Positions 1 to 1,908 of a stretch of 37,409 nucleotides of DNA are shown here, piece after piece. The DNA is taken from assembly GCA_007693395.1 (NCBI GenBank), contig REDS01000120.1:1-37409 (forward strand), in the 5' to 3' direction. Source of the stretch: Balneolaceae bacterium. Its GTDB lineage: Bacteria; Bacteroidota; Rhodothermia; Balneolales; Balneolaceae. Every line of letters begins with the position of its first letter. Positions within the stretch are counted from its first letter, which is position 1. Both the position numbers and the translations under genes were made by a program. The notes below the pieces were generated by a model. That model saw only the letters and a program-made list of their open reading frames with translations. It was not told the origin of the DNA and did no database searches.

Positions 1-65
1 TGCAGGTCGTCTAAATATAACAATTTATGGGCAGAAAGTCCGACAGACTCCTAGTGTGATTATTT

Positions 66-84
66 ATAACGCGTTTACCGGTTA
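66..84. repeat. Left terminal inverted repeat of the IS
   Basis: The 19-bp sequence at 66-84 is the exact reverse complement of 1120-1138. It lies 64 bp upstream of the transposase start, as expected for an IS end. Confidence 0.85.
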
Positions 85-148
85 GATTTTAATCCACGAG
101 TGGAGATCTAACATTAAATAATGTAACATTTTTATATTAAAAAAGGCC

Positions 149-1117
149 ATGCATCTAATTGATAATATTTATCATATAGGTGTTAATTATCACAAAAACA
201 CCAACCCTATGCATGACCTAAAGGCCAATTTCGATAAAATTTTACCCATCGTCAAACAATCCCTGGCTGATCAACTCGATGCTTTTGGCAACCTGCACCA
301 CTATCCCAACAAACCGGATCTGCCCGATAGCCATGTTATTGCCCTGTCGCTGCTTCAGCAAGCCCTGAGCATCGACAGTGAGCATTGGTATTGGAGCAAG
401 CTTCAAACCGACTATGCCCAGGCCTTTCCGGATCTGCCGCACCTGACCAACTATAACCGCCGCCGCAACTATTTGACTGGGTTTACCGTGCAGCTGGCCT
501 CGGTGTGGGGGCAGGCTCTTTGCCCTGATGAGGATACCTACATCGTTGATTCAATCCCCATTTCCATTGCCCATATTGCCCGTGAGCACAGCACAACCGC
601 CTGCCGGGAATCATTCCACAGCGCCCCTGACAAGGGCTATTGCGCAAGCCTTGACGACTATTATATTGGCTATAAGCTCCACCTTGTGGTGAGCCTGGAC
701 GGGGTGTATCACTCCATGGAGATGACCAAAGCCAGTGTCCATGATGTGCAGTATTTAAATGAACTTCACCATAGTGGTCTGCAGGACTGCCTGGTGTTGG
801 CCGATAAAGGGTATTTATCTGCCCACCGGCAGCTGGATCTGTTTTGCCAGACGGGGATTGAGGTTCAAACTCCAATGCGGAGAAACCAACATGGATACCG
901 GCCCTGGCCAACCGTTTTCAAAAATGCCCGAAGGAGGGTAGAAACTGTATTTTCACAGCTTAGTGATCAAATGATGCTCAAACGAAATTACGCCAAATCA
1001 TTTAATGGGCTGCGAGCACGTATCATTGCAAAAGTGACTTCGGTTACCTTCCTTCAGTACCTCAACAAACAAAACGATCGCCCCTTGAATCACATAAAAC
1101 ATGCCTTAGCTGCTTAA
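149..1117 (+). CDS. IS982-family DDE transposase
   Basis: A 322-residue transposase that would cut and rejoin the IS ends through a DDE active site in an RNase H fold. The three acidic positions can be placed: D in VDSIPI (about residue 133), D in LADKGY (about 218) and E in RRRVETVFSQL (about 263). The YIGYKLHLVVSLDG and SVHDVQYLNEL blocks match the IS982 layout. Length agrees with the family (about 270-320 residues). The reading frame is intact, so the enzyme may still be active. The start used is the first ATG; a second in-frame ATG lies 20 codons downstream (residue 21). The antisense reading frame inside it (483-911) is a shadow. Family membership is inferred from motif order; presence of a transposase is near certain. 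Confidence 0.9.
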   Translation: MHLIDNIYHIGVNYHKNTNPMHDLKANFDKILPIVKQSLADQLDAFGNLHHYPNKPDLPDSHVIALSLLQQALSIDSEHWYWSKLQTDYAQAFPDLPHLTNYNRRRNYLTGFTVQLASVWGQALCPDEDTYIVDSIPISIAHIAREHSTTACRESFHSAPDKGYCASLDDYYIGYKLHLVVSLDGVYHSMEMTKASVHDVQYLNELHHSGLQDCLVLADKGYLSAHRQLDLFCQTGIEVQTPMRRNQHGYRPWPTVFKNARRRVETVFSQLSDQMMLKRNYAKSFNGLRARIIAKVTSVTFLQYLNKQNDRPLNHIKHALAA

Positions 1118-1119
1118 TT

Positions 1120-1138
1120 TAACCGGTAAACGCGTTAT
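1120..1138. repeat. Right terminal inverted repeat of the IS
   Basis: This is the exact reverse complement of 66-84. It starts only 3 bp after the transposase stop codon, so the IS is very compact at its right end. Confidence 0.85.
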
Positions 1139-1553
1139 TTTCGTAAAAAATTGGGTGTAATTGATAAGTACCAGGAGCAGTATCTCACCAACAATATGCT
1201 GCGCGGGAAGGTGGATGAAGTGTTATTACTTAAAGATGGAAACGCCGCCCCGCTCGATTATAAATTCGCCCAATACGAAAGATAAATTATTCAACACCTA
1301 TAAAACACAGCTTGCCTGTTATGTCTGGCTTATTGAGGATAATTTTAACCGGCCGGTAAATCGAGGATACCTGGTATACACCCGAAGCAAAAGTAAACTT
1401 GTAAATGTGGAACTGGAAGAAGCATTTAAACAGGATGTAAAAGAAAAAGCTGCTGCCATTATCCGCATTATCGACAAGAATCAGTTCCCAAAAGCAACAC
1501 CCTACAAAAAACGATGCATTGAGTGCACATACCGAAATATTTGCATTAAATAG
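1139..1553 (+). pseudogene. cas4: Cas4-like PD-(D/E)XK nuclease, 5'-truncated and frameshifted
   Basis: Cas4 proteins are Fe-S exonucleases that help acquire CRISPR spacers. In the first frame (1139-1282) coding sequence runs straight out of the IS end. It contains GKVDEVLLLKDG (the acidic D motif) and PLDYKF (the D-x-K motif of PD-(D/E)XK nucleases), then hits a stop at 1283-1285. A one-base shift around 1277-1283 restores the rest: YKTQLACYVWLIE (the conserved Q/Y helix), RGYLVYTRS, and a C-terminal CIECTYRNIC cluster typical of the Cas4 Fe-S site. The N-terminal part with the first cysteine is missing; none of it is recognisable left of the IS. A related non-CRISPR PD-(D/E)XK protein is possible. 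The relic CRISPR repeats 250 bp downstream on the same strand favour Cas4. Confidence 0.75.
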
Positions 1554-1799
1554 CAGTTTTTGTAGTTTGGAGAATGTAGTGTAAAATACACTCTGGTTCC
1601 GGATGCAAAATTATTGAAGTAGCGCTCTTTTATATACTGTAAAAAGCTGAAAGGCATAGACTTATGTATAATAAGATGTACGGAAAAACAAACATTTTAC
1701 ACTTAAAGAAGATATTATGTTCTACATTTCAACACGATATAATAAAAAACCCGTGATGTTTAAAACAATAAATAATATCATTCTACATGTAAAAAGCTC
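1554..1799 (+). other. AT-rich non-coding gap, possible decayed leader or cas remnant
   Basis: This stretch is clearly richer in A/T than the flanking genes and carries stops in all frames. A short hairpin, AGTGTA-AAA-TACACT, lies at 1578-1592. A short frame from 1714 (MFYISTRYNKKPV...) is not recognisable as Cas1, Cas2 or anything else. By position, between the cas4 remnant and the repeats, it is where cas1/cas2 or a leader would be expected in an intact locus. That reading is inference. Confidence 0.35.
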
Positions 1800-1908
1800 C
1801 TCTCTTCACTAATCCACCAAAACAAGGATTGAAACAACTACTTCAGCAACACCAGACATAACAAGGGTAATTCTCTTTTCTTTAATCCATCATAAAAAAA
1901 ATCGAAGC
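1800..1908 (+). CRISPR. Relic two-repeat CRISPR array
   Basis: The 36-bp sequence at 1800-1835 reads like a type I/III repeat: it contains AATCCACCAAAACAAGG and ends with the classic 8-nt crRNA handle ATTGAAAC. After a 37-nt unique stretch (1836-1872), the 36 bp at 1873-1908 align without gaps to the first copy at 26 of 36 positions, sharing the CTCT start, AATCCA core and GAA-C end. A degenerate distal repeat is normal for the trailer end of an array, and 37 nt is a typical spacer length. Handle orientation puts transcription on the plus strand, with the leader toward the cas4 remnant. With only two copies, one degenerate, the call rests on repeat style, spacing and context. Confidence 0.6.

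Follow-up and report, generated by a model that had tools for sequence, protein, structure and literature searches.

The window, the 37,409-nt stretch of Balneolaceae DNA analysed here, is one whole contig (C226) of a draft assembly of 227 contigs that is 97.97% complete, and its left edge is therefore a contig end. Next to this edge, it carries a complete IS982-family insertion sequence, a subtype I-B cas4 gene truncated to its 3' part and broken into two reading frames, a remnant CRISPR leader, and a single spacer between two repeats (Table 1). No known RNA families were detected within the window.

Table 1. Features of the CRISPR-Cas remnant and its left flank in the window
Feature	Position	Strand	Remarks
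End of a second repeated element, probably an IS	1..54	.	Same 54 bases end contig C12; CTAG junction; contig edge
Complete IS982-family insertion sequence bordering the cas4 fragment	66..1138	+	Transposase 149-1117; NF033520; inverted repeats
cas4 remnant, first frame	1139..1285	+	About codons 56-103 of the intact gene; premature stop after frameshift; tblastn and translation
cas4 remnant, second frame	~1278..1553	+	C-terminal Fe-S cysteines CIECTYRNIC; tblastn and Pfam
Remnant CRISPR leader between cas4 and array	1554..1799	+	Position as in relatives; junction sequence shared
CRISPR repeat 1, intact, leader side	1800..1835	+	2-7 mismatches to relatives' repeats
Single 37-nt spacer	1836..1872	+	No convincing target match
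Degenerate terminal CRISPR repeat	1873..1908	+	26/36 identical to repeat 1; period 73 nt

The cas4 remnant is 77% identical at the DNA level to the gene of an intact relative. Its first frame translates as FRKKLGVIDKYQEQYLTNNMLRGKVDEVLLLKDGNAAPLDYKFAQYER followed by a stop, while the second, shifted by one, reads KDKLFNTYKTQ... and also KDKLFNTYKTQLACYVWLIEDNF...CIECTYRNICIK up to its own stop; compared with relatives, a one-base frameshift lies near 1275. When both frames were joined, Cas4b was the top PADLOC family (E = 3e-60), the same model that is matched by the intact Cas4 of a relative (G036), and the TIGR00372 cas4 score was 76.3 bits, above the cut-off of 65. The second frame alone scored 62.4 bits, under this cut-off, and passed Pfam Cas_Cas4 at 41.7 bits. 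In tblastn, the first frame aligned with residues 53-122 of the intact G036 Cas4 (E = 2.7e-23) and the second with residues 102-192 (79% identity, E = 4.7e-47). These two fragments were the only matches of that query in the whole genome, and the 5' part of the gene, coding for the first ~53 residues, was absent from the rest of it. The sequence-only reading had described a frameshifted, cas4-like PD-(D/E)XK gene at this place, and we found it at the stated coordinates. The remnant is thus an I-B Cas4 by curated profile. It is not an uninterrupted reading frame that contains every Fe-S cysteine and nuclease motif: the N-terminal cysteine, as located in an intact homologue, sits in the missing first ~53 codons. 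Because these codons are lost and a frameshift splits the remainder, the remnant is a pseudogene rather than a working Cas4.

The repeat adjoining the leader differs at 2-7 positions from the repeats that related genomes have in regular arrays or remnants, and a scan of a public genome collection returned near-identical repeats in Rhodohalobacter halophilus and a Balneolaceae MAG. At three or fewer mismatches, the 36-mer occurs once in the genome. Of 131,676 positions scored across the window and two further contigs of the genome, counting both strands, only the two repeat copies reached 24/36 or more, and none of 20,000 local shuffles reached 26/36 at a CRISPR-like period; the second copy is therefore not due to chance. 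We took a CRISPR array to have repeats of 23-47 nt, a regular period, unique spacers, and a repeat common to the arrays of relatives. The unit has a 36-nt repeat and a period of 73 nt, in just two copies of which one is degenerate. Arrays of related Balneolaceae have the same 36-nt repeat type at periods of 71-75 nt, with 11 copies in G012, at least nine in G086, and at least four in G036; near-identical 36-mers at CRISPR periods thus exist in relatives, two of them directly after an intact cas4. The leaders of the window, G036, and G016 have AAAAAGCTC in common at the leader-repeat junction, and their identity is weak further upstream. Given this alignment and the second copy at the 73-nt period, the window array comprises the repeat next to the leader, a single spacer, and a terminal repeat that has decayed, exactly at the coordinates proposed from the sequence. 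Its place beside the terminal repeat suggests that this spacer is probably the oldest, left after contraction of the array. As a separate observation, the genome G046 has three diverged repeats of this family (L029 9095-9274), and the first of the spacers between them forms a near-perfect palindrome (GACGACCTACGCT...AGCGTAGGTCGTC), an unusual feature in a spacer.

The suggestion that the spacer records an old invader gained no support from the spacer search, which gave no convincing protospacer among phage, plasmid, and viral-contig matches. No copy with three or fewer mismatches was present elsewhere in the genome. Exact 24-mer and 21-mer spacer patterns matched no viral contigs; the first 18 bases were present in 18 viral contigs, where the remainder agreed at about the chance level and the best total was 26/37. 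Among phages, the top BLAST match was to Vibrio phage 1.240.O (E = 0.04); it was rejected because just 27/37 positions agreed across the whole spacer and this phage has an unrelated host. Plasmid matches (E = 5) were likewise set aside. A degenerate pattern of the peptide read from the spacer gave no match.

The nearest intact homologues of the cas4 remnant lie inside complete I-B loci beside arrays. In G086 and G045, the gene order is cas8b-cas7-cas5-cas3-cas6-cas1-cas2-cas4-array, and from a partial cas7 on, the G036 locus agrees with this order; PADLOC typed all three loci as I-B. A leader lies between cas4 and the array in these loci, and in G036 and G086 the array directly downstream of the intact cas4 is of the same repeat family as that of the window. 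The intact counterpart that the sequence-only reading had proposed to look for in related genomes therefore exists, with the order cas1-cas2-cas4-leader-array. As the relatives' order ends in cas4-leader-array, the cas4-array junction in the window is the end of the ancestral locus, and everything to the left of about codon 55 of cas4 is gone. The earlier assignment to type I or III was right as to type I, specifically I-B according to the Cas4b match and the relatives' loci, and too wide in leaving the choice between I and III undetermined; a type III link of the repeat was rejected, as no Cas10 turned up in the window's genome or in any of 18 genomes of the same genus that were searched. G086 also contains a partial extra cas6 start between cas3 and the full-length cas6 (L022 11103-11237; 73% identity over 45 residues).

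Genome-wide, protein-by-protein searches of the 227 contigs found no Cas1, Cas6, Cas7, or Cas10, no credible Cas2, and no helicase of the Cas3 type that exceeded the cut-off. Measured against the set of a functional I-B system (Cas1, Cas2, Cas3, Cas5-Cas7-Cas8b, and Cas6), the assembly falls short, with Cas5 and Cas8b outside these single-protein searches. The loss of cas1, cas2, and effectors that had been surmised from the sequence was borne out, since the genome yielded neither these genes nor cas6. Because the assembly is an incomplete draft, missing cas genes could sit in unassembled DNA.

The insertion sequence has a transposase that matches NF033520 transpos_IS982 at 195 bits (cut-off 130, E = 1.5e-57) and perfect 19-bp terminal inverted repeats (66-84 and 1120-1138), as befits an IS982 element. 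It directly abuts the break in cas4; on its other side lies unrelated, non-cas4 DNA, and the 15 bases to its left (CTAGTGTGATTATTT) do not encode the preceding Cas4 residues. We observed no clear target duplication and no pre-deletion intermediate, and so infer the role of IS982 from its position alone. The lack of a clear target duplication fits a deletion beside the IS, short of proof. The sequence-only reading had recognized the relic and missed this element at the fragment edge, which is the probable agent of the loss; the loss is most likely an IS982-linked deletion or rearrangement rather than the effect of the frameshift alone. Further to the left, window positions 1-54 are identical to the end of contig C12, and CTAG adjoins both. 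Contig C92 overlaps the left end of the IS982 element by 55 bases and then enters a gene with a sulfatase-like product, judged by its sequence. It represents the same place without the second element, suggesting that the population sequenced had mixed alleles. The simplest reading is that a single IS982 copy has C92 as its left neighbour and that the second element lies at CTAG in part of this population.

Cas1 of the window's system type was found only in G012 among the 27 same-genus genomes searched. Five genomes (G010, G016, G017, G018, and G019) have one or few repeats, with no Cas1 of this type found; in G010, G017, and G018 the repeat is at a contig end, so the array may continue there. 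The remnant in G016 (L034 2540-2900) comprises the first 30 cas4 codons, a leader, and one damaged repeat, and that in G019 (L027 9385-9421) is a solitary repeat. The relic in the window neighbours a TPR gene that is conserved across the genus. Homology to every relative ends near the 3' end of this gene, at ~1934-1950, and the two close relatives examined have differing genes past this point, which points to a junction that is variable in the genus. A site in common with the intact loci was rejected: the window's downstream genes were unmatched in the fetched repeat-bearing loci, bar one weak, chance-level match. The window's site differs from those of the intact loci examined, and a same-site ancestor was not observed among them.

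We consider it very probable that the locus represents the distal end of what was once a subtype I-B system (cas1-cas2-cas4-leader-array), lost through IS982-bounded decay. The initial impression of a relic CRISPR-Cas locus is supported by intact I-B relatives with the same junction and repeat family and by finding none of the cas genes searched for elsewhere in the genome; neither of the two outcomes that it had named as refuting it came about. The host of the former locus would have been a Rhodohalobacter-type Balneolaceae genome, in which an IS982 element may have become lodged in cas4 at about codon 55. What lay beyond it (the start of cas4 together with cas2, cas1, cas6, and the effector genes) would have been lost, probably by IS-linked deletion or recombination, and owing to this loss the cas4 stump is now linked through IS982 to unrelated DNA. 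With the adaptation and interference genes gone, the stump would have become frameshifted, and the array may have contracted until one spacer was left between the leader-side repeat and the degenerate end repeat. The remnant should be non-functional, since there is no Cas6 for transcript processing, no Cascade or Cas3 for crRNA use, and no Cas1-Cas2 for spacer addition.

The window begins at a contig end within repeated DNA, and the assembly holds two alternative left neighbours, as might be seen if a complete locus existed and the assembly had been split at repeated IS or CRISPR DNA, the frameshift being a base-call error. However, both assembled versions agree on the 15 non-Cas4-coding bases to the left of IS982, the 5' part of cas4, cas1, cas2, cas6, and cas7 were on none of the 227 contigs, and the second repeat is also decayed; such an artefact is thus very unlikely. 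An accidental meeting of a stray RecB-like nuclease pseudogene with CRISPR-like repeats, for which a match of the fragment to the general PD-(D/E)XK family PDDEXK_1 might speak, is scarcely credible: Cas4b is by far the best family, the fragment belongs to the I-B branch of Cas4 rather than to a nuclease family found away from CRISPR loci, and in G036 and G086 the intact homologue directly precedes an array of the same repeat family, which refutes the idea.

It is also highly improbable that the repeat-spacer unit has been kept for a function that needs no cas genes of its own, for instance as an anti-cas spacer or as a crRNA-like regulator that Cas proteins from elsewhere would serve. In favour of this, repeat 1 is intact, the five same-genus genomes mentioned above keep one or few such repeats with no matching Cas1 found, and 12 nt of the spacer (1852-1863) are perfectly complementary to the cas4 stump (1317-1328). 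This 12-mer lies mid-spacer, however, and not in the 5' seed; together with a partial direct repeat with 1493-1509, we took it as chance. The best overall spacer match to the stump was 20/37, which 25% of shuffles equalled, and matches to the cas regions of four relatives were 20-22/37, equalled by 39-98% of shuffles; at this level, an anti-cas role is unsupported. Moreover, no Cas6 or effector was found that could use the unit, and relatives do not share the unit at the corresponding place. There is only a very slight chance that solitary I-B-family units recur in several genomes of the genus without matching cas genes because they are still useful, for instance where a re-acquired system could land or as small guide RNAs that Cas proteins supplied in trans would use.

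As the end of a decayed I-B system, the locus is an ordinary CRISPR relic, and such decay has been known since at least 2010. Its value therefore lies in a documented example and a caution for annotation. The death of an immune locus is well resolved here, with an IS at the breakpoint, a frameshifted stump, and an array reduced to one spacer; the stump should not be annotated as a working Cas4, nor the array as active. Together with the remnants in sister genomes, the window suggests repeated loss of I-B CRISPR immunity in a halophilic genus, Rhodohalobacter in the broad sense, for which our literature search found no published account of CRISPR.

The relic resembles the intact I-B loci of Balneolaceae (G036, G045, and G086, and G012 of the same genus) in cas4 sequence, cas4-leader-array order, repeat family, and period, whereas those loci keep cas1, cas2, cas6, and effector genes and the window keeps none. 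It is similar to the I-B remnants of G016 and G019 in the same genus, but these lie at another chromosomal site, common to both, beside a different gene. Degraded CRISPR/cas loci have been described in Escherichia, Salmonella, and Shigella, where frameshifts, truncations, and IS insertions have disrupted cas genes, a cas deletion has IS elements at its edges, and a degenerate terminal repeat occurs (Touchon and Rocha 2010, PMC2886076). The relic in the window shares with these enterobacterial loci a broken cas gene, an IS at the edge of the cas loss, and a degenerate terminal repeat; they are of other subtypes in other hosts, whereas the window holds a I-B relic in Balneolaceae with IS982 at the break.
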